Assembly (NCBI GenBank): GCA_025350105.1
Contig: JANXYJ010000037.1
Location: 1 to 64,000 of the forward strand
Origin: Terriglobia bacterium
GTDB lineage: Bacteria > Acidobacteriota > Terriglobia > Bryobacterales > Bryobacteraceae
Direction of reading: 5' to 3'
Length of the DNA: 64,000 bases
The translations under genes and the position numbers were made by a program. Shown here piece after piece: positions 6,899 through 29,061 of the stretch (positions are counted from its first letter, which is position 1; each line of letters begins with the position of its first letter). The notes below the pieces were generated by a model. That model was not told where the DNA came from, did no database searches, and saw only the letters and a program-made list of their open reading frames with translations.

Positions 6899-8302
6899 AT
6901 GCTTCAATCTATCGCCATCGGTTTCTTTGGATGCGCAATCGCCTTCGCCGCCGGCACAACGCCGGTCACTTTCAACAAAGACGTTTTGCCCGTCCTGCAA
7001 AAGAACTGCCAGACCTGCCACCGCCCGGGTCAGGTCGCGCCCATGTCGTTTCTCACCTATCAAAGTACCCGCGCGTGGGCCAAAGCCATGAAGGTAGCCG
7101 TAGCTTCTCGAAAGATGCCGCCCTGGAACGCCGATCCTCATTTCGGGCCGTATCTAAATGACCGATCCCTGAAGCAAGCTGAGATTGACATCATCTCCCA
7201 ATGGGCCGATAACGGCGCCCCCGAGGGCGACGCGAAGGACGCCCCGCCGGCCGCCACATTTGCCGAAGGCTGGATGATCCAGCCCGACGTTGTCATCGAC
7301 GGTCCCGTCACCAAAGTCCCGGCGCATCCCAAGAACGACGTGATTGAATGGAGCACCGTCATCATCCCCACGGGCTTCACGAAGGACACTTGGGTTACTT
7401 CCATCCAAATCAAACCAGAGTTTCCAGAGGTCACCCATCACATTTGCACCGGCTATGTTCCGCATCAAGCGGGCGTGAAATACGGTCTGGCGGTTTGGCT
7501 CGATCGTCCTCGCGACGAAGAAGGCTCGGCAATTCCTGAAAAAGGCGCCACGTTTGCCACGTTGCCCCAGGAAGTGAACCGCATGGATGCCGATTCCGCG
7601 GCGGTTATGCGTGAAAGCGGGCTCCCTGGTGGCGGCGCCCAGGATTGCTATCTTCCGGGCAACCTGGCCGCGGACTACCGTCCGCTGAACGCCGCGAAAT
7701 TGATCCGCGCCGGTTCCGACATCGTGTTCGTGGTTCACTACACCCCCAACGGAACCGAGTTCACTGACCACGCCAAGATCGCCTTTACCGTTGCCAAGGA
7801 ACCGCCGCAGCGCCGCTATGTTTCTTTGTTGATTTCTTCACCGCTCGATCCCAAGCAGTTCGCCATTCCGCCCAACGACGCCAATTGGAAAGCGCCGCCT
7901 GCCGAAGCAACCTTCCAGCAGGACGCCGAACTGGTGTACATGATGCCCCATATGCACGTCCGCGGCAAAGATCAAACCTGGACCCTCGAATTCCCCGACG
8001 GCCGCAAGCAAGTTGTCCTTAGCGTTCCTCGTTATGACTTCAACTGGCAACTGGGCTACGAAAGTTCCATTCGCGTCCCCAAAGGGACGAAGCTGCGTGT
8101 CGACGCGCACTTTGACAATTCGCCCAACAATAAATTCAACCCCAATCCTAATAAAACTGTCTACTACGGCCAAATGACCTGGGAAGAAATGATGTCGCCT
8201 TTCTTCGGTATTGTTGTGAAGAATGACCCTTCGCTCAGAACCGAGGCCGACGAACGCAAACTCATCTCCACGCCGATCGTAATCGGTAGGGGCGGAGGTT
8301 AA
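6899..8302 (+). CDS. Secreted cytochrome c / copper type II monooxygenase-like protein
   Basis: 467 residues with signal peptide MLQSIAIGFFGCAIAFAAG and an AAAGGA ribosome-binding site 6-7 nt before ATG. A short cytochrome-c-like head contains a CxxCH haem motif (NCQTCHRPGQ) and the partner segment KMPPWNADP. The rest resembles the C-terminal half of ascorbate-dependent copper monooxygenases, with His-rich metal-site signatures VTHHICTGY and MMPHMHVRGKD. This combination is common in Acidobacteriota and Planctomycetota; substrates are unknown and a periplasmic redox role is inferred. It is a paralogue of the 26205-27536 gene and of the remnant at 15449. Confidence 0.8.
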   Translation: MLQSIAIGFFGCAIAFAAGTTPVTFNKDVLPVLQKNCQTCHRPGQVAPMSFLTYQSTRAWAKAMKVAVASRKMPPWNADPHFGPYLNDRSLKQAEIDIISQWADNGAPEGDAKDAPPAATFAEGWMIQPDVVIDGPVTKVPAHPKNDVIEWSTVIIPTGFTKDTWVTSIQIKPEFPEVTHHICTGYVPHQAGVKYGLAVWLDRPRDEEGSAIPEKGATFATLPQEVNRMDADSAAVMRESGLPGGGAQDCYLPGNLAADYRPLNAAKLIRAGSDIVFVVHYTPNGTEFTDHAKIAFTVAKEPPQRRYVSLLISSPLDPKQFAIPPNDANWKAPPAEATFQQDAELVYMMPHMHVRGKDQTWTLEFPDGRKQVVLSVPRYDFNWQLGYESSIRVPKGTKLRVDAHFDNSPNNKFNPNPNKTVYYGQMTWEEMMSPFFGIVVKNDPSLRTEADERKLISTPIVIGRGGG

Positions 8303-10975: not shown

Positions 10976-12556
10976 ATGCGCAACTTTCTATTTCTGACAC
11001 TTGCCGTTTCTGCTTTTGCCCAGAACAAATCCGATTGGCCGCTGTACAACGGTGACTTCGCCGCCACGCGTTTTTCCGCGCTTACTGAGGTCAACAAGAC
11101 AAACGTTGCAGGCCTTCGCAGACTCTGCACTTACGACACCGGCGAAAATGTGGCGTTTCAAACCGGGCCCATCGTCGTGCAGGGCACGATGTACTTCACA
11201 ACGCAGGCCACCACTTATGCCATCAATACCGCCGACTGCTCGTTGAAATGGAAGCAGACCCGTCCCAACAGTGCCGGTGGTTTAGGAGTGAATCGCGGCA
11301 TTGCATTTGCGGACGGCAAACTGTTCCGCGGCACGGGCGATGCGCACGTCATTGGCATGGACGCGGCCACCGGCGCAACTGTTTGGGACACGCCCATCGG
11401 CGACCGCGACAAAGGCGAATCGGTTCCCCTTGCTCCCATCGCCTGGAAGGGCATGGTGTTCGCGGGCAACGCTGGCGGGGACAACTTCGGCGTCACCGGC
11501 CGCGTGTACGGACTGAATGCGGGCGACGGTAAGGAGGTCTGGCACTTCAATATTGCCGCCGACTCTGGCGCTGCCGGGGCCACCTGGAAGAACATCAGCA
11601 AAGATAACCCGGCAACCGGCGGCGCGACCTGGACCAGCTACAGCCTGGATCCTGACGCCGGCGTCCTGTGGGTTTCCAGCGGCAACGTCGCGCCGGATTT
11701 CTTACTCGCCTTGCATCCGGGCGACAATCTCTACACTACTTCCGTCATTGCTCTCGATGCCAAAACCGGCAAACTGCTGCGTTTCGTCCAGCCGGTAAAA
11801 AAAGACTTTCACGATTGGGACATGACCGCACCGCCCGCGCTGATCCGTACAAAAGCGGGGCGCTCCATTGCGGCGGCCGCCGGCAAAGACGGCATTCTTT
11901 ATGGGATTGATCGCAGTGCGGTAAGCGCGGGCAAATCCAGTGATGCTCAGTTGAAGATCCACTACGCCACGCCCGTAACCACGCGGGAAAACGTCAACGC
12001 ACCGTTCACCACAACTGCGGACACGCATTTTTGTCCCGGCGTGCAAGGTGGCGTCGAATGGAACGGACCGGGCTTCAGTCCGCAGTCCAACCTGTTGTTC
12101 GTCAATGCCGTGGATTGGTGTTTCTCGGTGAAAATTGCTGACGCCGGTACCGTGAAGGGCGCGCCCGGTAAATCCTGGTCTGGTTCCGGTGATGCCGCGC
12201 ACGCTTTCGGAACCCCCGATCCCAAAGAGAAGATGGGCGGATGGCTGACCGCCGTCGATGCCGATAGCGGTAAGGTTCGTTGGAAGTACAAATCAAGCCT
12301 ACCGATGGTGGCCGGGGTGACTCCCACCGCCGGAGGGCTGGTGTTTACAGGTGAACTGAACGGCAATGTTTTGGCGCTGGATGGCGAGAGTGGGAAAGTG
12401 CTGTGGCAGGACGCGACCGGATCTGCCGTGGCCGGCGGCGTGATCACCTTTGAACAAAACGGACATCAACGCATTGGGGTAGCGGCTGGCATGCGTTCTC
12501 CCATATGGCCGGTTCCGCAAACCACCGGCCGCGTGATGGTCTATGGGTTGCCTTGA
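10976..12556 (+). CDS. Secreted PQQ-type eight-bladed propeller protein (quinoprotein dehydrogenase family), copy 1
   Basis: 526 residues with signal peptide MRNFLFLTLAVSAFAQ. The propeller shows repeated W-type blade motifs (NAGDGKEVWHFNI, DADSGKVRWKYKS, DGESGKVLWQDAT) typical of PQQ alcohol/glucose dehydrogenases. The DFHDWDMTAPP region corresponds to the active-site Asp segment of the family. No PQQ biosynthesis gene or cytochrome partner is in the window. Acidobacteria have many such proteins, some classed as 'acido-empty-quinoproteins' because the genome lacks pqq genes, so cofactor use is uncertain. The gene ends inside a 13-bp tandem repeat and is followed by a second propeller gene. 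Confidence 0.82.
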   Translation: MRNFLFLTLAVSAFAQNKSDWPLYNGDFAATRFSALTEVNKTNVAGLRRLCTYDTGENVAFQTGPIVVQGTMYFTTQATTYAINTADCSLKWKQTRPNSAGGLGVNRGIAFADGKLFRGTGDAHVIGMDAATGATVWDTPIGDRDKGESVPLAPIAWKGMVFAGNAGGDNFGVTGRVYGLNAGDGKEVWHFNIAADSGAAGATWKNISKDNPATGGATWTSYSLDPDAGVLWVSSGNVAPDFLLALHPGDNLYTTSVIALDAKTGKLLRFVQPVKKDFHDWDMTAPPALIRTKAGRSIAAAAGKDGILYGIDRSAVSAGKSSDAQLKIHYATPVTTRENVNAPFTTTADTHFCPGVQGGVEWNGPGFSPQSNLLFVNAVDWCFSVKIADAGTVKGAPGKSWSGSGDAAHAFGTPDPKEKMGGWLTAVDADSGKVRWKYKSSLPMVAGVTPTAGGLVFTGELNGNVLALDGESGKVLWQDATGSAVAGGVITFEQNGHQRIGVAAGMRSPIWPVPQTTGRVMVYGLP

Positions 12557-12582: not shown

Positions 12583-12648
12583 ACCCGGCAGATTGCGGGT
12601 AAGATAGTGATTCAGCCAACTTCTCAGAAACAGGGGAATCCAATCGTG

Positions 12649-14394
12649 ATGAAATCTTTTCAAACTTGCGCGGTCCTGACGATGCTGCTGCCCGGCACCG
12701 CGGCGTTTGCTCAAACGCCCGCGCCCTTCGTGCCCGTAACCGACCAGATGCTGCAGAATCCTGATCCCAACGATTGGCTAATGTGGCGGCGCACGTTAAA
12801 CAGTTGGGGCTATAGTCCGCTAAAGCAAATCGATAGGAAAAACGTGGGCCGTCTGCGGATGCTGTGGACCCGCGGCTTAGGTCCCGGTGTTCAGGAGGGC
12901 ACTCCACTGGTTCACAACGGCGTGCTTTACATGCCGAATCCCAGTGATTTGCTGCAGGCTCTCGACGGCGCAACCGGCCGCTTGCTCTGGGAATATAAGC
13001 GTCCACTGCCCGAAGACATCGGCAAGCATATTCCGTTCCCGGCCATCAATCGCAACGTGGCGATTTACGGCAGCAATATTATCGACACCAGTGCCGACGA
13101 TTTCGTCACAGCCGTGGATGCCACCACTGGCAAGCCTGCTTGGGAAAACCGCATTCTGGACTATCGCGAACTGGCCGCCCAGGAAACCGCGGGGCCGATC
13201 ATCGCGGACGGCAAAATCATTTCCACGCGCGGTTGTGAGCCGAAATCGGGCCCTGATGCCTGCGTGATCACCGCGCACGATGCCAAGACCGGCAAGGAAC
13301 TGTGGCGCCGCCGCACCATTCCGAAACCGGGCGAGCCGGGCGACGAGAGCTGGGGCGGGGTTGCAGATGACAAGCGCTGGCACGTGGGCGCGTGGATGGT
13401 GCCCAGTTATGATCCGGAACTGAAACTGCTGTTCATCGGGACGTCGGTTACTTCGCCTGCGCCTAAATTCATGTTGGCCGGCAATGACAAGAAGTATCTG
13501 TATCACAACTGCACGTTAGCCATTGATGCGGAGACCGGCAAGATTGTTTGGTATTACCAGCACGTCGTCGATCATTGGGATTTCGATCATCCCTTTGAAC
13601 GCTTATTGGTGGATACGGCCGTCGCGCCCGACGCCAGCCAGGTGACCTGGATCAATCCGCGAATTCGTGCTGGTGAAGTACGCAAAGTGGTAACAGGCAT
13701 TCCTGGCAAGACTGGCATCATCTACACACTGGACCGGAAGACCGGTGAGTTCCTGTGGGCCCGTCCCACTGTTCAGCAGAATGTTGTCAGCAAGATTGAC
13801 GGCGCTACCGGCGAAGTGACGGTGAATCCGGAAACTACTTTCACCGCCGCGCGGCAGACCCGCTTTGTCTGCCCCACGGTAAACGGAGGTAAAGGATTCC
13901 AGGCGGGTGCGTACAGTCCACTCACCAATACGATGTATTACGGGCTGCAGAATACCTGCTCGGACGTGACCTCGATTGCAGACAAACCGCAACTGGGCGT
14001 GCTGTATGCCATCCAGAACAAAAACCGCATCGCGCCGGGTACGGACAAAGTGGGCAGTATTTTCGCGGTCAACGCGGAGACGGGCAAGACGACTTGGAAA
14101 TTCGACACGCGCGCGGGGGCGATGTCTTTGGTGGCCACCGGCGGTGGTCTGATTTTTGGCGGCGATACCAGCGGTATGTTCCGTGCGCTTGATCAGGATA
14201 CCGGCAAGGTTCTGTGGGAAGTGAACCTGGGCTCCGCGGTGACAGGCTATCCCATCACGTTTGCCACGGGCGGAAAACAATACGTCGCCGTCAGCACCGG
14301 AACTTCCTTGGTGACCAACGGCCTGAATACGCTGGTACCGGAGGTGAAGCCCAGCGGAACCAACAACCTGTTTGTGTTCGCGCTTCCGGAATAG
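12649..14394 (+). CDS. Secreted PQQ-type propeller protein (quinoprotein dehydrogenase family), copy 2
   Basis: The ORF opens with GTG at 12607, but the ATG at 12649 follows AGGGGA and yields signal peptide MKSFQTCAVLTMLLPGTAAFAQ, giving 581 residues. Blade motifs DGATGRLLWEYKR, DATTGKPAWENRI, DAKTGKELWRRRT, DAETGKIVWYYQH and DQDTGKVLWEVNL are clear. The VVDHWDFDHPFE segment lies at the family's active-site Asp region and CPTVNGGKGFQAGAYSP matches methanol/ethanol dehydrogenase-like proteins. It lies 92 nt after copy 1, probably co-transcribed. Periplasmic alcohol or sugar oxidation is the family role; the real substrate and the presence of PQQ are unknown. Confidence 0.82.
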   Translation: MKSFQTCAVLTMLLPGTAAFAQTPAPFVPVTDQMLQNPDPNDWLMWRRTLNSWGYSPLKQIDRKNVGRLRMLWTRGLGPGVQEGTPLVHNGVLYMPNPSDLLQALDGATGRLLWEYKRPLPEDIGKHIPFPAINRNVAIYGSNIIDTSADDFVTAVDATTGKPAWENRILDYRELAAQETAGPIIADGKIISTRGCEPKSGPDACVITAHDAKTGKELWRRRTIPKPGEPGDESWGGVADDKRWHVGAWMVPSYDPELKLLFIGTSVTSPAPKFMLAGNDKKYLYHNCTLAIDAETGKIVWYYQHVVDHWDFDHPFERLLVDTAVAPDASQVTWINPRIRAGEVRKVVTGIPGKTGIIYTLDRKTGEFLWARPTVQQNVVSKIDGATGEVTVNPETTFTAARQTRFVCPTVNGGKGFQAGAYSPLTNTMYYGLQNTCSDVTSIADKPQLGVLYAIQNKNRIAPGTDKVGSIFAVNAETGKTTWKFDTRAGAMSLVATGGGLIFGGDTSGMFRALDQDTGKVLWEVNLGSAVTGYPITFATGGKQYVAVSTGTSLVTNGLNTLVPEVKPSGTNNLFVFALPE

Positions 14395-14548: not shown

Positions 14549-14643
<95 letters not shown>

Positions 14644-14664
14644 ACATTCTAAAATACCCCAAGC

Positions 14665-14935
14665 CGCCCCTGAACGGCACCGTTACAAGGTCGCCGACGC
14701 TCAGCATCTCGACGTCGCCGCCTTTCTCAATGACCTCGCCCGTAATTTCATGACCTAAGATCAATCCCGGCGGAGCGGTCGTACGCCCCCGCACCATGTG
14801 CTGATCCGACCCGCATATATTGGTCGTCACGACCTTCAGAATCACGCCATGTGGCGCGTCTTTGCCACCGAATGGCTCTGACTCGCTCTTCGGCATCCTT
14901 AGCTTCGGGTACGGAATGGACTGAACTTCGACCAC
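14665..14935 (-). pseudogene. Truncated zinc-dependent alcohol/formaldehyde dehydrogenase remnant
   Basis: About 90 residues recognisable as the N-terminus of a medium-chain zinc dehydrogenase of the glutathione-independent formaldehyde dehydrogenase type: VEVQSIPYPKLRMP, then NICGSDQHMVRGRT (catalytic zinc Cys) and PPGLILGHEITGEVIEKGG. Homology stops at about LVTVPF, and the open frame then runs antisense through tRNA-Ser as nonsense. An intact enzyme is about 380-400 residues, so roughly three quarters are missing. There is no good start codon; the only one offered is GTG. I interpret it as a gene decayed or cut at the tRNA. Confidence 0.75.
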
Positions 14936-15003
14936 ACCGGGCTTAATTTAGGCGACTCCGCGATTACTTGCCAGTTGTCTAGCCTTCCTAACTTCCTAAA
15001 TGG

Positions 15004-15399
15004 CTAGAACGCCGCAGCGCCCGCTTCGGCCACAGCGTGATCCTGGTCACCTGAGCCGCCACTGACGCCAATGGCGCCAACCACTTTCCCGCCCTTCTTC
15101 AATGGAATCCCACCGGCAAAAATCATGATCTTGCCGCCGTTTGAGGCATGGATGCCGAAGAACTGCCCGCCAGACTGCGAGTGCGCAGCCAAGTCCTTGG
15201 TTGCGATATCAAAGGCGCGCGAAGTGTATGCCTTTTTCTGCGAGATATCGATACTGCCTAGCCAGGCTCCGTCCATCCGAACGTGCGCGACGATGTTACC
15301 GCCTTCGTCCGCCACGGCAATGTTCATCGGCTGGGCGATCTCCTGCGATTTCTTCTCTGCTGCTGCTATTACTCTACGTGCGTCTGCTAAAGTGACCAC
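15004..15399 (-). CDS. GlcG/HbpS-like haem-binding family protein (DUF336)
   Basis: 131 residues covering the whole family fold: LADARRVIAAAEKKSQEI, then MNIAVADEGGNIVAHVRMDGA, DISQKKAYTSRAF, and the glycine-rich GGIPLKKGGKVVGAIGVSGGSGDQDHAVA end. Members bind haem or act as small accessory proteins beside oxidoreductases; the biochemical role is often unknown. A purine-rich region (AGGGAGAG) precedes the ATG. It is the only intact gene within a patch of remnants (14.6-16.0 kb). Confidence 0.85.
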   Translation of the reverse strand: MVTLADARRVIAAAEKKSQEIAQPMNIAVADEGGNIVAHVRMDGAWLGSIDISQKKAYTSRAFDIATKDLAAHSQSGGQFFGIHASNGGKIMIFAGGIPLKKGGKVVGAIGVSGGSGDQDHAVAEAGAAAF

Positions 15400-15448
15400 T
15401 TAATTTCTCTCCCTGTTGTTGAAAATGTGAAATGCTAAATTTCTAAGC

Positions 15449-15655
15449 TCAGTTTGCCACGAACGGAGTCGAGATAATCTTCGTTGGATCTGCATCGCGC
15501 TCGACCACAACACCAAAGAACGGGAACATCATCTCGTCCCACGTCATTATTCCATAGTAGACCGTCTTGTTCGCGTTGGGATTGAATTTGTTGTTAGGGG
15601 GATTATCAAAATGCGCCTCTACGTGAAGCTTGGTTCCTTTCGGAACCTTTATCGA
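15449..15655 (-). pseudogene. C-terminal remnant of a cytochrome c / copper-monooxygenase-like gene
   Basis: 68 residues, from SIKVPKGTKLHVEAHFDN to FVAN, align without gaps over most of their length to the C-terminus of the intact 6899-8302 protein (SIRVPKGTKLRVDAHFDN, NKTVYYGQMTWEEMM, FFGIVV). Upstream of this point the frame (15449-16174 in the track) becomes nonsense antisense to another remnant, so the N-terminal haem and copper domains are gone. Confidence 0.85.
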
Positions 15656-15803
15656 GGGGAGCCCGCCTCCGCTTCGCCAGCCGAGGACCATTGTGGCGAA
15701 AGTAAGGCTGTTTGAGTAGTGAAAAATCATTGAACGGCAAAGGGAGTGGCGCAGCGCAAGGCCAATACAGCCGCGCGGCCGGTGTATAAGCCCCACGATA
15801 AGA

Positions 15804-16021
15804 ATGCCGACCGATGGCGATACGTTGGTCGTGGACGTGACTAATTTCACGGAAGACACTTGGATTGATGGCGATTGTTCCTTCCATACCCAAGACATGC
15901 ACGTGGTGGAGCGCTTCACCCGCAAAGGCAATATACTAGAATACCGGGTGACCATAGAAGATCCCATAGAAGATCCCGCAGAAGATCCCGCGGTGTTTAC
16001 CCCGCACCATCGTTTTTGGCC
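15804..16021 (+). pseudogene. Remnant of an acidobacterial secreted DUF protein (GDTLVVDVTNF family)
   Basis: The frame reads DGDTLVVDVTNFTEDTWIDG, then SFHTQDMHVVERFTRKG and VTIEDP. This is the core of a large, uncharacterised secreted family common in Acidobacteria, where it normally follows a WEG and ends near a TIEDPxVFTxPW segment. No start or signal peptide is present, and after PAVFTPHHR the frame loses similarity. A 12-bp tandem expansion lies near its end. It is related in style to the 25347-26201 protein (WEGDVLTVTTTHL). Confidence 0.7.
15954..15989 (+). repeat. 12-bp tandem repeat (3 copies) inside a pseudogene
   Basis: ATAGAAGATCCC, ATAGAAGATCCC, GCAGAAGATCCC, translating as IEDP-IEDP-AEDP where relatives have a single IEDP. 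In-frame slippage expansion. Confidence 0.85.
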
Positions 16022-17049: not shown

Positions 17050-17218
17050 GCGGAACGAATAACCATGAGTCTTGCTGAGCGCGCATCCTGGCTGTGCTGG
17101 TGTTGGTGTTGGTCAAGGAAAGCTTGGCCTGAGGTTCCTTCCGTTGAATGGAAGCGCGGGCCGATAAATGCAGATGCAGGACGATGATGGCAGCTTTGGT
17201 CTGCGACAATATTCAGAC

Positions 17219-18292
17219 ATGAAGTGTCCCTCGCCGCTTTTCACCCGCCGTAAGGCCTTGCAGACTTTTGCTTGCGGCTTTGCCCTGCCGGCGGTCTTGT
17301 CCGCGCAATCAGCAGGCTTTCCCAAAGGTGCCGTCATTAGAACCATTCTGCGCGACTACGCGCCAGAGGAACTGGCGGGCGGGCCGACGCTGTTTCATGA
17401 GCACATGCAACTGGCGCCGGATTTCAATGCCAAATTTACCGCGGCTGCCATGGCTGCGCGGGCCGTGAATGGACTGCCGCCGCTGCCGGCGCGAGCCTTA
17501 TCTCCGCCGTCGGGTCCCGACATCATGCATGACGTGGATCTGATGTCAGCGGAAGTGGCGAATACCAAACGCGAAGGCGTGACTTGCATTGTCGACGCCG
17601 GCCATCCTGATATGGGGCGCGATATCAATTTTCTGCGTCAGGTCTCCCTGAAGTCCGGTGTTCCCATCGTTGCGGGAGGCGGCTTTTACGCGCAGCCGTT
17701 TTATCCCAAAGAGATCTCCACGATGAGCGAGGATCAGATTGTGCAAGCGCTGATTAAGCAGGCCGACGACGACGTGCTGGGCGTGTTTGGCGAAATCGGT
17801 TCGTGGGACGAGATTACCTCTGACGAACGCAAAGTGTTTCGCGCGGTGGGCCGCGCGCATGTGGCAACCAACTTGTCCATCATTACTCATACGGGAATTC
17901 CCGGAAAGTCCGCGCTGGAACAGTTGGATCTGCTGGAAGACGCCGGAGCGAAACCGGAACGGGTTGTGATTGGGCACTTGGGCAATCTGGTGGACGCAAA
18001 TGTTTATGTCCACAAGGCCATCTGCCGCCGGGGTGCGTTTGTCGGTTTCGATCGCCAGGGTGGGAACAATGACGCGCAGCAGGTTCCGCTGGTGATGGCA
18101 TTGCTCGAAGCCGGCTTTGCCGATCACTTATTGTTTTCTGCTGACGCGTCCAGCGGCTACGCGAAAACTTTGACGAATTTCCTGCCCAAGCTGAAAGCGG
18201 CTGGCGCCACTGATCAAGTCCTGCATTCGATCATGGTGGATAATTCCCGCCGGTTCCTGGCGTTCGTGCCCAAGCGTCCGCGCAAAAAATAG
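17219..18292 (+). CDS. Exported phosphotriesterase-family metallohydrolase
   Basis: The ORF opens at 17168; MKCPSPLFTRRKALQTFACG at 17219 supplies a twin-arginine-like leader ending ALPAVLSAQ, so I took that start (357 residues). Metal-site landmarks of the amidohydrolase superfamily, phosphotriesterase branch, are FHEHMQL (HxH), DAGHPDMGRD, GEIGSWDEITSDE, ITHTGIPG, VIGHLGN and LLFSADAS (final Asp ligand). The GEIG element is typical of phosphotriesterase-like lactonases rather than true organophosphate hydrolases. The expected role is periplasmic hydrolysis of a lactone or ester; the substrate is unknown. Confidence 0.85.
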   Translation: MKCPSPLFTRRKALQTFACGFALPAVLSAQSAGFPKGAVIRTILRDYAPEELAGGPTLFHEHMQLAPDFNAKFTAAAMAARAVNGLPPLPARALSPPSGPDIMHDVDLMSAEVANTKREGVTCIVDAGHPDMGRDINFLRQVSLKSGVPIVAGGGFYAQPFYPKEISTMSEDQIVQALIKQADDDVLGVFGEIGSWDEITSDERKVFRAVGRAHVATNLSIITHTGIPGKSALEQLDLLEDAGAKPERVVIGHLGNLVDANVYVHKAICRRGAFVGFDRQGGNNDAQQVPLVMALLEAGFADHLLFSADASSGYAKTLTNFLPKLKAAGATDQVLHSIMVDNSRRFLAFVPKRPRKK

Positions 18293-21773: not shown

Positions 21774-21937
21774 GATGGTTTTGGGCAGGACAGCTCTGGT
21801 ACGGCCTATCTTGTCGGGGTCATTCTGACGGGTGAGTCGCAAATTCGGATGGCCCCAATTCATGGAATTGTAAGTTCCGCACGATAGCCTTGATGAAACT
21901 ATTGTTCGCTTGAACATCAAAAAAAGAGATGCATGCC

Positions 21938-23578
21938 ATGACACCTCCTGTTCGCAAAACTACCCTCCGCCGTTCCCTTTTTGCCCTGCTTGCTTTTAGC
22001 TTTTGCGCCTCTCTGCCGGCGCAAATACAGCAGGCACCCGACGCCCGGCCGAAGCTGGTAGTTGGCATTGTCATCGATCAGTTCCGCTACGACTACCTGT
22101 TGCGTTTTCGCCAGGACTACAATTCTGGCCTGGCCCGTATGTTGGACCAGGGTGCTGTGTTTAGCCAGGCGCATTACGCGCATTCCTACACGGTCACCGC
22201 CGTGGGCCATTCCACGTTTATGAGTGGTGCCACGCCGTCGGCCAGCGGCATCATCGGCAACGAATGGTTTGAGCGTGAGGGCAATAAGGGAAGTACGGTA
22301 ACCAGCGTTTCCGACCCTAATACCAAGCTGGTGGGCGGAGTGCCAGGGATGACGGGTTCGTCGCCTCGGCGCTTGCTGGTCAGCACGGTTGGCGACGAAC
22401 TGAAGATGCGTGGCGGTGACTCGCGCGTGATCGGCATCGCGATAAAAGACCGTGCGGCGATTCTGCCATCGGGGCACACCGCCGACGGGGCTTACTGGTA
22501 TGACAACGATTCCAATCATTGGGTGACCAGCTCTTACTATGCTGAGGACTTGCCAGCGTGGGTAAAGGACGTAAACGATCGCAAAAGCTATCAGCGGACG
22601 CTAGGTGCCCAATGGCTGCCACTCGACGCCAAGCCGGACGCCAAACCGTTTTGCACCATGACCAATGGCAGCGAAATCCGATTTTGCGGCACCGTTGAAG
22701 CCACCCCATGGGGCAATGAACTGATCGAAGAGTTCGCCGAGGCCGCGATTGCCGGGGAAAATTTGGGCCAACATTCTTCACCGGATTTGTTGACCGTAAG
22801 TTTCTCCTCCAACGATTATGTGGGGCATCAGTTGGGTCCCGACCACCCGGCCGTGCGCGACATTTCGATCCGTACCGATCGCCTGTTGGGTAAACTGATG
22901 GACTTTATTGACCAGCGGGTCGGCCTGGGTAACACGCTGTTCGTATTAACGGCGGATCATGGCGTGTCGCCAGTGCCCGAGGTCAATCAAAAGCGAAATA
23001 TGCCTGGCGGACGGATTCCGGTTTTGAAGACGTCCAAGACGGTTAACGATGCCTTGGTGAAACGTTGGGGCCCCGGTAACTGGTTAATGCCCGGTGGACT
23101 AAACACGCCTTATTTGAACTACGAGCTAATCCAGAAATATAAGGCGGATCCGGAAGCAGTGGAACGCCTGGCCGCCGACACGTTGCGAAAGACCGCAAAC
23201 ATCGCCCGCGTCTACACACGGCACGAACTGGAACGCGGCATGGTTCAAAAAGACGCCATCGGCGACGCCATCAGCCGCAGCTTCTTCGGTCCACGCTACG
23301 GCGATTTATACGTTCTACAAGAACCCTACTATTTGTTTGAAGACACTGGCACTTCGCACGGCACTCCGTATGATTACGATACCCACGTTCCACTGATTTT
23401 TATGGGGCAGGGGATTCGCGCGGGCAATTATTCCCGCAACGTGCTGATCAACGATGTGGCGCCAACGCTCGCCGCCATGCTGCAGATCAATACTCCCAGC
23501 GGTGCGTCAGGCCAGGTGCTGCCGGAAGTGATGCCGCTGAGTCTGCCTAACGTGCGCGCGATCGCGACACTACGCTAA
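21938..23578 (+). CDS. Secreted alkaline phosphatase / phosphodiesterase superfamily enzyme (PafA-like)
   Basis: The track offers 21929; the ATG at 21938 has better spacing from AAAGAGA and gives a signal peptide (TTLRRSLFALLAFSFCASLPAQ). About 546 residues. Metal and nucleophile landmarks are VVGIVIDQFRYDYL (first Asp), YTVTAVGHSTFMSGATPS (Thr nucleophile position), FSSNDYVGHQLGPDHP (Asp/His pair), LTADHG, and GTSHGTPYDYDTHVPLIFMG (final His). A Thr rather than Ser nucleophile matches PafA-type phosphatases, which remove phosphate from small monoesters in the periplasm. It stands alone after a 155-nt leader. Confidence 0.87.
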   Translation: MTPPVRKTTLRRSLFALLAFSFCASLPAQIQQAPDARPKLVVGIVIDQFRYDYLLRFRQDYNSGLARMLDQGAVFSQAHYAHSYTVTAVGHSTFMSGATPSASGIIGNEWFEREGNKGSTVTSVSDPNTKLVGGVPGMTGSSPRRLLVSTVGDELKMRGGDSRVIGIAIKDRAAILPSGHTADGAYWYDNDSNHWVTSSYYAEDLPAWVKDVNDRKSYQRTLGAQWLPLDAKPDAKPFCTMTNGSEIRFCGTVEATPWGNELIEEFAEAAIAGENLGQHSSPDLLTVSFSSNDYVGHQLGPDHPAVRDISIRTDRLLGKLMDFIDQRVGLGNTLFVLTADHGVSPVPEVNQKRNMPGGRIPVLKTSKTVNDALVKRWGPGNWLMPGGLNTPYLNYELIQKYKADPEAVERLAADTLRKTANIARVYTRHELERGMVQKDAIGDAISRSFFGPRYGDLYVLQEPYYLFEDTGTSHGTPYDYDTHVPLIFMGQGIRAGNYSRNVLINDVAPTLAAMLQINTPSGASGQVLPEVMPLSLPNVRAIATLR

Positions 23579-23594: not shown

Positions 23595-24377
23595 CTAACG
23601 GGCGCTGCAGGGCGTGGGATTCCACTTCGATCCGTCGGCTTCGCGCTTGAAGTGATCGCTGGTAAGAAAGTCGCTGGCCAGAAACTCGGAATCTTCCACG
23701 ATGCTGGTCAGCAGTAACCAGGAATCGCCGTTGGCCTCAGTGGTGCGCGTGAAATATTCCGTCAGCACCGTGTTGCCACTGTAAGGGATGCCATTTTTTC
23801 GCAAATACCCCGGCTTTAGATTCGTGGTGGTCACTTTTAAGGAACCCGGCAGTTTCCCTCCGGCCGGCGGTGGCGGCGCCGCAAATCCCATAAACGTCGG
23901 TTTGCTGATGTCCCATTCCGCGACGGAAAATCCTTGCCAGGAAGGTCCTTGCGCCGTTTTCGCCTGTGCTATCGGTAAATGACCGTCGGTGAAGTGAAAC
24001 AGCCGCGTTTGCGTCCCTTCGTCGGTTTCCACTTTCAGCGTGTTATCGTCCTGCCAACTGATCCGCAAACGCGTCGGCAAACGCATCACTCCAGGCGCGC
24101 CATAGGCCTTGCATTGATTGCCCGCGGCTTCGTCCTTCGCCGCGTCCCAGGCTTCCGCTGTCTTTTTGCCATTAGGATTCAGCGGCAGACTGGTGATGTC
24201 CCCTTTGGCAGGAGTCATCATGCGCCAGCGCCAGTCTTCAGTGACCACAGCTACCCAATTGCCCGTGATATCTTCCGGCGCCCCGGCTTTGGCGGATGGC
24301 GGCGGGCCAGCAGGCGGTTGAGCGAAAACACCAACAGACAAACCGGCGACCAAAGTAATTGTTAGAAGAGTTTTCAT
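23595..24377 (-). CDS. Secreted protein of unknown function, acidobacterial lipocalin-like family (member 1)
   Basis: 260 residues with signal peptide MKTLLTITLVAGLSVGVFAQ. The core starts DITGNWVAVVTEDWRWRMM and shows NQCKAYGAPGVMRLPTRLRI, DDNTLKVETDEGTQTRLFHF and TNLKPGYLRKNGIPYSGNTV. This series is shared with the 25347-26201 protein and is probably an all-beta fold. Last gene of a four-gene minus-strand operon, 4 nt after the MBL-fold gene. Function unknown; constant co-location with a secreted hydrolase and a haem/copper protein suggests a shared periplasmic pathway. Confidence 0.75.
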   Translation of the reverse strand: MKTLLTITLVAGLSVGVFAQPPAGPPPSAKAGAPEDITGNWVAVVTEDWRWRMMTPAKGDITSLPLNPNGKKTAEAWDAAKDEAAGNQCKAYGAPGVMRLPTRLRISWQDDNTLKVETDEGTQTRLFHFTDGHLPIAQAKTAQGPSWQGFSVAEWDISKPTFMGFAAPPPPAGGKLPGSLKVTTTNLKPGYLRKNGIPYSGNTVLTEYFTRTTEANGDSWLLLTSIVEDSEFLASDFLTSDHFKREADGSKWNPTPCSAR

Positions 24378-24381
24378 ACGC

Positions 24382-25350
24382 CTATTTCTTCGCGCTCAGG
24401 TTCTTGTAAACGGCTTCGATAAATTGATCCGCGCTCCAAAAGCTGCCGGGCTTGCTGTAAACGCCGTCGTAGTCTAGCGTTGGTTTGGCGGCCTTCACTT
24501 GTTCGAGCGTTTGGCCTTTCTTCACGCCATCCGCAATCCGATCACGAATGATGGTCACCATGTCGCGGTATTCCACCACATCGGCTTGATCGGCCACACG
24601 CCCGTGGCCGGGAATCACATAGGTACCCGCTTCCTGCTTTTCCGCCGGCACCATGATATCGATCATGCGGTTGATGGCGTCCAGAATGCCTTGAATATTG
24701 CCTCCGCGTTGCAGGTCGACGATGGGGTAGCTGGTGGTGACGTACAGATCGCCCGCGCTAATCACATCGGACTTGCGGAAGAAGACCATGCTGTCGCCGT
24801 CAGTGTGCGCGGCAGGCGGATGCATAATCTGCACGGCTTCGCCGTTAAAGAACAACTTCTTTTCTTTGGTGAAATAGGTGTCGTTGGGCCACGCTTTGGG
24901 CGGGAAGGCTGACTCTTTCCCCGTCGGTGCGCTCATGCGGTTCAGCACGCCTTCATGCGCGATGATGGCCGCGCCGGTGCCTGCGTCACCGATATCGCCA
25001 GTGACGTTGCCGCCAGTGATGGTGCTGCCGGCCAGAAATACTTTTTCGTTCCCGCCCACGTGATCGGGATGAACGTGAGTGTTGATCAAATAACGAATCG
25101 TTCCCTTGGACAACTTGCGGACTTCGGCCAGCAGTTTGTCCGCGTTCGGCGTAAGACCGGAATCCACCATCAGCACGCCGTCGTTACCAATCTGCACGCT
25201 GACGTTGCCGCCATCGCCGGCGATCATATAGACGTTGCCTTGCACGTGAAACGTGTGAAGTTCAACCGAGGCGGCGTTCTGTTGAGCGTGCGATTTTACC
25301 AGAGAAAAACCTCCGGCCAATGCTGCGATTACCAGGAACGACTTCTTCAT
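24382..25350 (-). CDS. Secreted MBL-fold metallohydrolase
   Basis: 322 residues with signal peptide MKKSFLVIAALAGGFSLVKS. The zinc-binding HxHxDH motif is HVHPDHVGGNE. Further ligands are HTDGDSMVFFRKSDV (His then Asp) and VIPGHGRVADQADV (final His). The layout matches the SoxH/quinoprotein-relay-type branch rather than true beta-lactamases. Its start overlaps the preceding gene's stop by 4 nt (ATGA type), so it is translated with the upstream DUF. A lactone or thioester hydrolase role in the periplasm is inferred. Confidence 0.85.
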   Translation of the reverse strand: MKKSFLVIAALAGGFSLVKSHAQQNAASVELHTFHVQGNVYMIAGDGGNVSVQIGNDGVLMVDSGLTPNADKLLAEVRKLSKGTIRYLINTHVHPDHVGGNEKVFLAGSTITGGNVTGDIGDAGTGAAIIAHEGVLNRMSAPTGKESAFPPKAWPNDTYFTKEKKLFFNGEAVQIMHPPAAHTDGDSMVFFRKSDVISAGDLYVTTSYPIVDLQRGGNIQGILDAINRMIDIMVPAEKQEAGTYVIPGHGRVADQADVVEYRDMVTIIRDRIADGVKKGQTLEQVKAAKPTLDYDGVYSKPGSFWSADQFIEAVYKNLSAKK

Positions 25351-26201
25351 TTGGCCGCCTTGCTAACAGCCGGGAAGGTTTTCATCTTGATGCGATATTC
25401 CGGATACATGGTTTCGGCGCCACCGCGCGCGGCTTGTTCGGGCACCCCGAAGCGTTGCGAGAATTCGGCTAAGAAGGGATTCGTTCCCGGCAGATGATGC
25501 GGGACCACGCCTTGCGGGCGTTCCACTTCAACCACGGCCTCGCAGGGATACGCGGGAATTTGTTGGTCGGGATTGTTAACGAAGTCGGTAGTGCGAATGA
25601 ACGGTTCGGTGAGATACACCGGGTCATTCACAATCGTTGCCACCGTCAGATACTTGCCATGGCGCACCCAATGTTCGATCACCACCGCGTCTTCGCTGCG
25701 CGGCGTACCATTGCGTCGAATCCATCCGGTCTTCAGATGCGTTGTGGTAACAGTTAACACATCTCCCTCCCATTTGCCGGTAGAAAATCCCTGCCAGGTG
25801 TGAGGAACGTAATCGGGTGGATGCGGACGGCCGTCCATCCAAATCACTCGTTCCGGGGCTTGCCAGAAAATATGCGTGTGATAGGCAATCAGCGTTTGTG
25901 CCGCCAGGTCCACTTCTTTCCACACGCGCATTTGTGCCGGTCCGCGAATGCCGTAGTCCGACGGATGCGGCTTGCACTGATGTTCGGGCAGCGTGAGTAG
26001 AGACGCGTCCCAACTATCGGCGTGACGCCGCGCCGCTTCGTTGATAGGCAGCCCCAAATAGTCGCCAATATCGGGTCCTGGAATGCGCTCCAGAAAATCT
26101 TCGTCGAAGCGGTTGTCCCATTCACCGGCGATGTCTTTTTGCGCCAGCGCGGGTAGGCCCAACGCTAAAGCGAGTACGGGAAGGATCAAAAAATGTTTCA
26201 T
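25347..26201 (-). CDS. Secreted protein of unknown function, same family as 23595 (member 2)
   Basis: 284 residues with signal peptide MKHFLILPVLALALGLPALAQ. It shares with the 23595 gene the DIAGEWDN start, HQCKPHPSDYGIRGPAQMRVW, the TWQGFSTGKWEGDVLTVTTT stretch and a KTGWIRRNGTPRSEDAV segment. The latter resembles the remnant at 15804, so all three may be one superfamily. It lies 3 nt after the cytochrome/copper gene and overlaps the MBL gene by 4 nt. Such proteins are numerous in Acidobacteria and uncharacterised. Confidence 0.75.
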   Translation of the reverse strand: MKHFLILPVLALALGLPALAQKDIAGEWDNRFDEDFLERIPGPDIGDYLGLPINEAARRHADSWDASLLTLPEHQCKPHPSDYGIRGPAQMRVWKEVDLAAQTLIAYHTHIFWQAPERVIWMDGRPHPPDYVPHTWQGFSTGKWEGDVLTVTTTHLKTGWIRRNGTPRSEDAVVIEHWVRHGKYLTVATIVNDPVYLTEPFIRTTDFVNNPDQQIPAYPCEAVVEVERPQGVVPHHLPGTNPFLAEFSQRFGVPEQAARGGAETMYPEYRIKMKTFPAVSKAAK

Positions 26202-26204
26202 GAT

Positions 26205-27536
26205 TTACTGTGCGCCGATCACCGCGGGCACTTGTCCTTGGGCCACCACGGTCTTCGGGTCGATGTCCCGGTCAACGATCACAGCCATGGGTGCGGCCAG
26301 CATTTCCTGCCAGCTTTGGTCGCCCCAGTGAACCGTATCCTTCGGGTCCGGGTTCCACTTATTGTTGACTGAATTGTCCCAATGCGCGGTTAGTTCGAGC
26401 GTGGTTCCTTTGGGGAAGTGCAACGGTTTGTTTTCGTAGTACACAATCTGCCAGTTGAAATCGTAGCGCGGCACGTTCAGCAAGGTTTCTTTTTCGCCGG
26501 TGGGATACACCGCTTCAATGCGCATATCTTTGCCGCGCAAATGCATGTGCGGTTGCATGTAGACGAAGTCCACGGCCTGGCCAAACTTCAGCGTGGCTTT
26601 GGCCGCTGCATTGGCGTCGCCGGGCGAAATGGTCAGGTCGGTCTGTGCGGCTGCAATGGACATGAAGCGCCGCTGCGGCGGAGCCTTCGCCAGTTCCAAA
26701 CCCACCATTGATTGATCTTCCGTATCTTTCCCATTGCTGGTGTAATGTACTTCGAAGACAATGTCCGCGCCCGCCGGAATCAGCTTCGCGGAATGATCGA
26801 TATCGAAGCGCTGCGCTTCCATGCCCGGCACGTAGCCCACCAAAAACTCGTTATCCAGAACTGCTGGGTTGCCCCCGTTGGCCTTCACCAGATCCTCGTT
26901 GCGGGTAGGGCCGGGAGCGTAGGGTGCGGAGCCAAACTGCGACTGCACCATCCACTTCGAACCTTTGGGCCGCACATTCGCCACCACATGATGCACCACG
27001 CTGCGGTTACTGGGCCGGACCTCGCCCGCCACCACCCAGGTGTCTTCTTTAAAGGGGGCTGATACCGTGACATAGGTGTACTCCACCGTTCCCTTCGCGG
27101 GAACTTTCAGCGGTGCTGGCATCTTCAAAATAAGGTCCGGCCGAATGTTCCAACCGCTGGCAAAGGTCACCGGAGCCGGCTTATCTTTGGCATCCCCCTC
27201 TGGCGCGCCGTTGTCGGCCCAGGCGGAAAGCGTGGCGATTTCCTGCTCGGTCAAACGTTTTTCGTTGGCGAAGTGCCCGTACTTCGGATCTGCAAACCAG
27301 GGCGGCATCTTCTTGCTGGCCACTGCGTTTTTGATGGCTTTGGCCCAGGGGCGCGTGGCTTCGTAACTGGTAAACGGCATGGGCCCGATCTCGCCGGGGC
27401 GATGGCACACCAGGCAGTTACGTTGCACAATCGGCAGCACGTCCTTGTTGTAGGTGACGTTTCCGGGTGCGGTGGTCGCGGTGTCGGCGGCCAGGGCCGA
27501 GAGGCTGATGATCAGCGTTGCGAGAAAACGGCGCAT
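26205..27536 (-). CDS. Secreted cytochrome c / copper type II monooxygenase-like protein (paralogue)
   Basis: 443 residues with signal peptide MRRFLATLIISLSALAAD. It has the same architecture as the 6899-8302 protein: CxxCH in NCLVCHRPGEIGPMPFTSYE, KMPPWFADP, then copper-domain signatures VVHHVVANVRP, VYMQPHMHLRGKDMRIE and an LTAHWDNSVNNKWNPDP end. First gene of the operon that continues with the DUF, the MBL-fold hydrolase and a second DUF. A periplasmic oxidation followed by hydrolysis is a plausible joint role (inference). Confidence 0.82.
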   Translation of the reverse strand: MRRFLATLIISLSALAADTATTAPGNVTYNKDVLPIVQRNCLVCHRPGEIGPMPFTSYEATRPWAKAIKNAVASKKMPPWFADPKYGHFANEKRLTEQEIATLSAWADNGAPEGDAKDKPAPVTFASGWNIRPDLILKMPAPLKVPAKGTVEYTYVTVSAPFKEDTWVVAGEVRPSNRSVVHHVVANVRPKGSKWMVQSQFGSAPYAPGPTRNEDLVKANGGNPAVLDNEFLVGYVPGMEAQRFDIDHSAKLIPAGADIVFEVHYTSNGKDTEDQSMVGLELAKAPPQRRFMSIAAAQTDLTISPGDANAAAKATLKFGQAVDFVYMQPHMHLRGKDMRIEAVYPTGEKETLLNVPRYDFNWQIVYYENKPLHFPKGTTLELTAHWDNSVNNKWNPDPKDTVHWGDQSWQEMLAAPMAVIVDRDIDPKTVVAQGQVPAVIGAQ

Positions 27537-27681: not shown

Positions 27682-29061
27682 CTACGCGCGCGCCAACTGC
27701 TCGGCCGTCGCGTGGTGCCGGCGATAAGGCGCGTACACGGCGTAAAAGCAAACCGCCGTCAATAGACCGGCGATCCCGATGGTGATGGCAATGGAGCTGC
27801 CCACTTTCAGGCCGTCGTGAAAGTAATTGTCATTCAAATAACCGGGCAGTAAGTTGCCAACCGTTTGGCCGCCCAGATTGAAGATGAACAGAAACAGCGC
27901 TGACACCTGGCCGCGTACTTGATTCGGCAGAATCATTTGCATCGCCGCATAAGCCACGCCCATTGGCAAGCCCAGGCAGAACAGCCCCGGCATCAGGAGT
28001 GCCAGCGTAGCGGTTGGGTTGGACAGCGTGAACGCGAATGGGATCAGCAGCATCACCAAAATTCCGCTGATGACTCCGGGGCGCAGGTGCGATTCGCGAA
28101 TGCCGGCCTTCTGCCAACGGTCCGCCATCACCCCGCCGGCGTACATGCCCAGGCAGCCGCAGGTTAAGACAATCAGGCCCAATGCCCGCCCGGTTTGCGC
28201 CGGAGTGTAATGATGCACGCGCTGAAAAAATGCTGGCCCCCAGCCCAACAGCGCGAAGGTGCCCATGGATTGAAAAATCATCGCCACCGAAAGCCCGATC
28301 ACAGATTGCCAGCGCATGCCGATCTGCTTGAACACTTCGCCTACCGACAACCGCGCCGCGCTGCCATCTTGTGCCCGCAGCAGATTCTTGCGCGCCGGTT
28401 CACGGATAGTCCACATCCACAGGCCCACGATCACCCCGGGGAGACCCACAATCAGAAACGTCAAGCGCCACGAAGCCACCGTTCCCAACAGCGGAAGAGC
28501 CACCGCGGGCATGTGCAAAGTTGCTTGCACCACCATGCCGCCCAGAATCAGAGCCAACCCCGCGCCGAAGAAAATCCCCATCGAATAAATGCTCAGCGCG
28601 CGGCCCAGCCGGTTCTTCGGGAAGTAATCGGTGATCAGCGAAAACGCGCCCGGCGAAAGCGTCGCTTCGCCCACGCCCACACCAACGCGAGCCAGGAACA
28701 GCATAAAGAAACTCGCCGCTCCGGCGCACAGCGTGGTCATGGCGCTCCACACAAACACGCCAATGGTGATTAAGCCCGTACGGCTTTTGCTATCGGCAAT
28801 GCGCCCCAGCGGCAGGCCCAGAATCGTGTAGAAAATGGCGAACGCAAATCCGTTCAACAGGCCAAACTGCGTATCGCTAATGTGCAGGTCGCGCTTTATG
28901 GGCCCTACCAGCAGGCCCAAAATCGTGCGGTCAATAAAGGAGAGCGTGTAACAAACCATCAGCGCCAACAGGACATAGTTGGCGTAGCGCAGGTTCGCCG
29001 GCTGCACGGTGGTATCTTTTGCTGTAGCTTCACGAACCTTGGTTTGAATGGGGCTGGCCAT
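27682..29061 (-). CDS. MFS transporter
   Basis: 459 residues with 12 predicted membrane helices, starting ANYVLLALMVCYTLSFIDRTI. The motif A region between helices 2 and 3 is GLPLGRIADSKSRTGLI, and ARVGVGVGEATLSPGAFSLITDYFP is the helix 4-5 signature of anion/aromatic-acid type (spinster-like) MFS members. A strong ribosome-binding site (AAAGGAGG) precedes the ATG. It lies upstream of the four-gene secreted-protein operon with 145 nt between, so it may import the product of that pathway; this is inference. Confidence 0.9.
   Translation of the reverse strand: MASPIQTKVREATAKDTTVQPANLRYANYVLLALMVCYTLSFIDRTILGLLVGPIKRDLHISDTQFGLLNGFAFAIFYTILGLPLGRIADSKSRTGLITIGVFVWSAMTTLCAGAASFFMLFLARVGVGVGEATLSPGAFSLITDYFPKNRLGRALSIYSMGIFFGAGLALILGGMVVQATLHMPAVALPLLGTVASWRLTFLIVGLPGVIVGLWMWTIREPARKNLLRAQDGSAARLSVGEVFKQIGMRWQSVIGLSVAMIFQSMGTFALLGWGPAFFQRVHHYTPAQTGRALGLIVLTCGCLGMYAGGVMADRWQKAGIRESHLRPGVISGILVMLLIPFAFTLSNPTATLALLMPGLFCLGLPMGVAYAAMQMILPNQVRGQVSALFLFIFNLGGQTVGNLLPGYLNDNYFHDGLKVGSSIAITIGIAGLLTAVCFYAVYAPYRRHHATAEQLARA

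Follow-up and report, generated by a model that had tools for sequence, protein, structure and literature searches.

The Acidobacteriota of soils are numerous but little understood, in part because of large exported protein families of unassigned function. Here we consider a run of four genes in one such genome and ask whether they form a single functional unit, which of them belong to it and what the unit might act upon. The window, that is the whole 64,000-nucleotide stretch of DNA that was analysed, contains a haem/copper gene (g1), a first DUF gene (g2), a metallo-β-lactamase (MBL)-fold hydrolase gene (g3) and a second DUF gene (g4). A first-pass annotation of the sequence had described the four as one secreted operon, spaced by 3–4 nt or overlapping, which together with an upstream MFS transporter could oxidize, hydrolyse and import a single compound. 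The open reading frames were found exactly as described: 3 nt separate g1 from g2, g2 and g3 overlap by 4 nt, and 4 nt separate g3 from g4. The signal peptides were likewise borne out, as the N-termini of all four products are Sec-like, with a charged n-region, a 10-residue hydropathy maximum of 2.4–3.0 and AxA-like sites. At the other end of the run, a PafA-like alkaline phosphatase gene (21929–23578, plus strand) converges on g4, leaving a gap of 16 nt.

Features of the window discussed in the text. The run g1–g4 reads from 27536 to 23595; lengths are from the ORF list.
Feature	Position	Strand	Description
g1	26205–27536	-	443 aa; predicted cytochrome c plus PHM/DBH-type copper monooxygenase; local neighbour, outside the conserved module
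g2	25347–26201	-	284 aa; predicted secreted all-beta protein of an unnamed family (ORF, alignment, model of a fused relative)
g3	24382–25350	-	322 aa; predicted secreted metallo-β-lactamase-fold hydrolase (PF00753, ligands, PDB profile and fold matches)
g4	23595–24377	-	260 aa; predicted secreted homologue of g2 (ORF, alignment, profile homology)
MFS transporter	27682–29061	-	PF07690; 145 nt upstream of g1
g1-type C-terminal remnant	15470–15652	-	43% identity, E 3e-12
Wider DUF-superfamily C-terminal remnant	15813–15965	+	nearest to a gene on C3, not to g2 or g4

Paralogues of these genes were mapped across the window's genome (4.74 Mb) by search and by fetching the surrounding regions. There are 29 close paralogues of g2, 29 of g3 and 21 of g4, and nearly all adjoin another member of the trio (27/29, 26/29 and 20/21, respectively). 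Because a g3 paralogue lies within 1.5 kb of 27 of the 29 g2 paralogues, against a random expectation of 0.9, the cassette recurs far beyond chance; about 25 dispersed trio clusters were counted. Some of these loci are partial tandem arrays, and at nine of them g2 and g3 are a single open reading frame. The loci have few neighbour families in common, the exceptions being a TonB-type family and g1. The aligned g3 copies have open frames without stops and so are not evident pseudogenes. Recent tandem amplification within the genome was considered and found unsupported, since on the tree its g3 copies intermingle with copies from other taxa (19 label changes). Where a cluster has one copy of each gene, these occur solely in the three cyclic permutations of 2-3-4; gene order was nevertheless given no weight, because the independent events are few and one outside locus (L120) has the order 3-2-4.

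The same grouping is found well beyond this genome. Within the genus, g4 is present in 13 of 23 genomes, and it was absent from all 38 other relatives searched; across the phylum, g2 was present in 7 of 396 genomes, which belong to several families. Scanning a larger collection yielded 80 outside loci in Acidobacteriota of several orders and in Gammaproteobacteria, including Candidatus Rariloculus; these were picked by similarity to the g2 of the window and describe that branch best. Forty-five of the outside clusters are complete, being flanked on either side by 2.5 kb of DNA or more, and of these 39 contain g2 with g3 and 32 contain all three genes. Natural g2–g3 fusions were also seen at 13 outside loci. 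Relatives of g4 were not found on viral contigs, and plasmids carry only distant superfamily members, in Novosphingobium, which are called hypothetical where they are annotated at all. Among the papers searched on MBL pseudoenzymes, DUF6152, PHM-like proteins, Solibacter paralogues and hydroquinone in connection with MBL proteins, none describes the trio. Defined by the adjacency of its genes, g2-g3-g4 is thus a self-contained module, present in the window, in its sister clusters and in the outside set. The recurring secreted cassette of the first-pass annotation is real for these three genes, and it is far larger and older than had been guessed.

The claim that all four genes are one unit holds for the linked paralogues g2, g3 and g4, but not for g1. 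No g1 was found on the same strand in any of the 45 complete outside clusters. The g1 family occurs in all 23 genus genomes, including those that lack g4, and at only one of 30 genus g1 loci checked (with short flanks) does it lie beside g2 or the trio, the exception being the window copy itself. When the families were counted for co-occurrence, g2, g3 and g4 therefore stayed together while g1 was mostly apart, and g1 was rejected as a cassette member, although it may yet share a transcript with the trio in the window. The protein fits its predicted haem/copper character, with a single cytochrome c motif (C41-x-x-C44-H45) and, from aligned paralogues, a full PHM-type set of copper ligands (H182, H183 and H264; H330, H332 and M412). 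Its structural model (pLDDT 73.5) has the PHM/DBH fold, matching 4zel (Foldseek, E 5e-9) and PHM (TM about 0.6 by target), while its Pfam Cu2_monoox_C score of 15.8 bits is below the cut-off of 23. A second cytochrome c/PHM-like paralogue, about 46% identical to g1, lies away from trio copies at 6899–8299 (plus strand). The other cassette copies have no counterpart of the MFS gene nearby, and it was likewise rejected as a conserved partner of the trio.

The first-pass annotation had also pointed to remnants of the first two families at 15.4–16.0 kb as a sign of a recurring cassette. Both remnants are real, about 150 bp apart and close to a tRNA-Ser gene. However, because they lie on opposite strands and the DUF fragment is nearest to other branches of the superfamily, they are debris and no relic of a g2-g3-g4 operon. 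The surrounding segment (14549–16000) contains tRNA-Ser(gct) and, after it, a truncated alcohol-dehydrogenase-like ORF, a 131-aa HbpS/GlcG-like ORF and both remnants, and it may be a worn insertion site. Elsewhere in the window are two consecutive quinoprotein-type genes on the plus strand (10976–12556 and 12607–14394), the latter PQQ-dehydrogenase-like yet below the PQQ and acido-empty-quinoprotein cut-offs, and a gene for a phosphotriesterase-family protein with a twin-arginine-like N-terminus (17168–18292, plus strand).

The two DUF proteins had been thought related to each other, and a profile–profile comparison of g2 with g4 leaves them clearly homologous (probability 100, E 2e-44, 30% identity). 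The window copies have no match in Pfam, NCBIfam or PDB, and 28 g2 members gave no meaningful match to any curated model. In the window's genome the wider g2 superfamily has 116 matches, of which the 29 described above are close; this secreted superfamily is very large, yet Pfam has no model that covers g2 or g4. Alignment identified two invariant cysteines in g2 (C76 and C220), which likely form a disulphide, and two in g4 (C89 and C257). In the model of a relative's natural g2–g3 fusion (pLDDT 87.5), the g2 half is all-beta and the g3 half has the MBL fold; the mutual placement of the halves is unsure because the pTM is 0.58. All matches listed in a fold search with this model were MBL-fold proteins.

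The g3 protein belongs to the MBL-fold superfamily by its Lactamase_B domain (PF00753, 60 bits against a cut-off of 22.7, E 3.8e-16), and in the window copy the metal ligands are complete (H92, H94, D96, H97, H182, D201 and H249, forming HxHxDH with a downstream His, Asp and His). Its best solved relatives by PDB profile and fold search are MBL proteins, including 8d2z and the chlorothalonil dehalogenase 6uxu. The seven ligand positions are all retained in 68 of 137 g3 sequences; in the other 69 the set is incomplete. The commonest altered motif is SxDxDH in place of HxHxDH, in which two site-1 histidines are gone and the site-2 ligands are kept. When the ligand columns are left out of the tree, 12 changes are needed to explain where the first two histidines were lost, at least four of them forced by supported branches. 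Fused g2–g3 proteins have an altered site more often than unfused ones (19/22 versus 26/82; Fisher 5e-6, a raw value that ignores relatedness), and since no more than two pairs could be used in a phylogenetically independent test, the association is not proven.

The best functional clue comes from the genes around other trio copies: two unrelated types of hydroquinone-cleaving enzyme are found beside the trio in different lineages. Among the 80 outside loci, 11 have a PcpA/MhqO-like ring-cleaving dioxygenase nearby and five the hydroquinone dioxygenase PnpC/PnpD, also with an aldehyde dehydrogenase at five; strong maleylacetate-reductase matches are present at four, an HpaB-type monooxygenase, HpaC and a cupin at six each, and an AraC regulator at eight, although, with several of these loci orthologous within a single lineage, the independent associations are fewer than the counts. 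Of 396 genomes from the phylum, just 2 have PnpD and 3 the PcpA/MhqO-like gene; with dioxygenases this rare, the link to the trio is not a matter of chance. In the window's own genome, one of two PcpA/MhqO-like genes lies directly 3′ of a trio copy on C163 and is followed by an esterase gene, and there is a separate PnpCD cluster on C49. There, at locus L157 (117–7779), maleylacetate-reductase-like, AraC, PnpC, PnpD and aldehyde dehydrogenase genes make up a hydroquinone cluster. Beside the trio copy of the window itself there is no ring-cleaving dioxygenase, and no hydroquinone catabolic operon is found there. All seven listed trio copies beside PcpA/MhqO-like genes keep every g3 ligand; the metal site is altered in some of the copies that adjoin HpaB/HpaC or PnpCD. 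A DUF6152 gene, near the trio at 16 of the 80 loci, lies repeatedly between or beside g3 and g4 (at L193, L194, L195 and outside loci). Hydrolysis ahead of aromatic catabolism, as one step of the proposed route, is backed by neighbours in other lineages, but not by g1 or the MFS gene.

We tentatively favour, at a little under even odds, a module in which an exported MBL hydrolase and two paired beta-domain partners prepare phenolic or hydroquinone-type compounds for uptake. A close rival dispenses with the aromatic focus. Here the trio would be a general secreted module that captures many kinds of soil organic matter together with a TonB receptor, comparable in role to polysaccharide-utilization modules, with the aromatic link confined to some copies. 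Most trio copies do have unrelated neighbours, as expected of some 25 copies serving such a role, and the interspersion of paralogues with those of other taxa would imply many old specificities. TonB receptor genes are near the trio at 17–21 of the 80 outside loci, and they adjoin it in several lineages, including genomes without hydroquinone genes: five trio-bearing genomes of the phylum sample have g2 and lack both dioxygenases (G088, G148, G351, G375 and G431), and three of these (G088, G148 and G351) have TonB receptor genes next to the trio. Hydroquinone is therefore not the substrate of all copies. However, a TonB receptor directly adjoins the trio at only 9 of the 80 outside loci and one own locus, and the two rare dioxygenases are strongly enriched over their background frequency, and we consider general capture possible but the less probable reading.

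The remaining explanations are each unlikely. The trio could be a non-catalytic exported assembly for binding, adhesion or signalling, in which hydrolysis is ancestral and largely lost; the half of g3 sequences with incomplete ligands, the repeated loss of the first two histidines and the mostly altered fusions all agree with this, but in the other half no ligand is lost, and to this half belong the window copy and the seven beside PcpA/MhqO-like genes, and the idea has a low probability as a general account. We give about the same small weight to the four-gene pathway of the first-pass annotation, in which g1 oxidizes, g3 hydrolyses and the MFS protein imports one compound. The tight spacing in the window and the complete haem and copper ligands of g1 fit it; against it, g1 accompanies the trio in no other complete cluster, and because the MFS gene is unmatched near other copies, the chain as drawn rests on one genome. 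Very improbable, finally, is degradation of beta-lactams or other antibiotics by g3 as an environmental metallo-β-lactamase with accessory DUF proteins. In NCBIfam and fold matches, class B beta-lactamases do rank with the closest named families, but all curated cut-offs are missed widely (the best class B model scores 51.8 bits against a cut-off of 100), and a family that has expanded, with zinc sites altered and catabolic genes nearby, does not fit resistance.

According to the aromatic model, g2, g3 and g4 would form an exported three-protein assembly, in which g2 and g4, as homologous all-beta and probably disulphide-bonded partners, may bind substrate, scaffold g3, or both. The g3 protein would most likely hydrolyse substituted aromatics of the phenol or hydroquinone type outside the cytoplasm, and the product would then be imported and enter hydroquinone-type ring cleavage. 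Different trio copies may act on different substrates, and the altered-zinc forms of g3, about half of the total and often fused to g2, probably either carry a single zinc or bind without catalysis. The window's trio appears to have acquired g1, which may pre-oxidize the substrate.

These observations define the minimal unit of one exported family, of which a single genome has about 25 copies and which Gammaproteobacteria share. The rare aromatic-catabolism genes beside it suggest testable substrates, and the g3 copies provide a natural series of metallo-hydrolases that are losing a metal site while their genes remain intact. A bolder reading, which we offer as speculation with perhaps one chance in a few, is that this is an undescribed exported three-protein module, built on a Pfam-less superfamily, diversified into some 25 specificities in each genome and distributed over more than one phylum, in which the MBL hydrolase has lost its first zinc ligands time and again to become a fused binding subunit: an aromatic counterpart of polysaccharide-utilization modules.

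Several known systems resemble parts of this locus. The PcpA/MhqO and PnpCD hydroquinone pathways are linked to it by genes that flank some trio copies; the papers searched, a part of the literature, do not report the trio with these pathways, which is weak evidence of its absence. PHM and dopamine beta-hydroxylase match the g1 model and share its six copper-ligand positions, but g1 differs in its N-terminal cytochrome c domain, its 13–14% identity and its scores below Pfam cut-offs. For g3, the best NCBIfam matches are the SoxH-related quinoprotein-relay MBL proteins (TIGR04558/TIGR04559), although at 93.7 bits against the TIGR04559 cut-off of 280 it is not a member by score. CPSF73/CPSF100 and INTS11/INTS9 are pairs of active and inactive MBL proteins that function in eukaryotic RNA processing; their families mix the two kinds, as the g3 family may. 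Among the closest solved structures are 6uxu and 8d2z, for which we know of no g2/g4-like partners. Their identity to g3 in the structural match is only 17–19%, yet they share the same MBL fold over most of its length, and the substrate of the hydrolytic dehalogenase 6uxu, chlorothalonil, is a halogenated aromatic.
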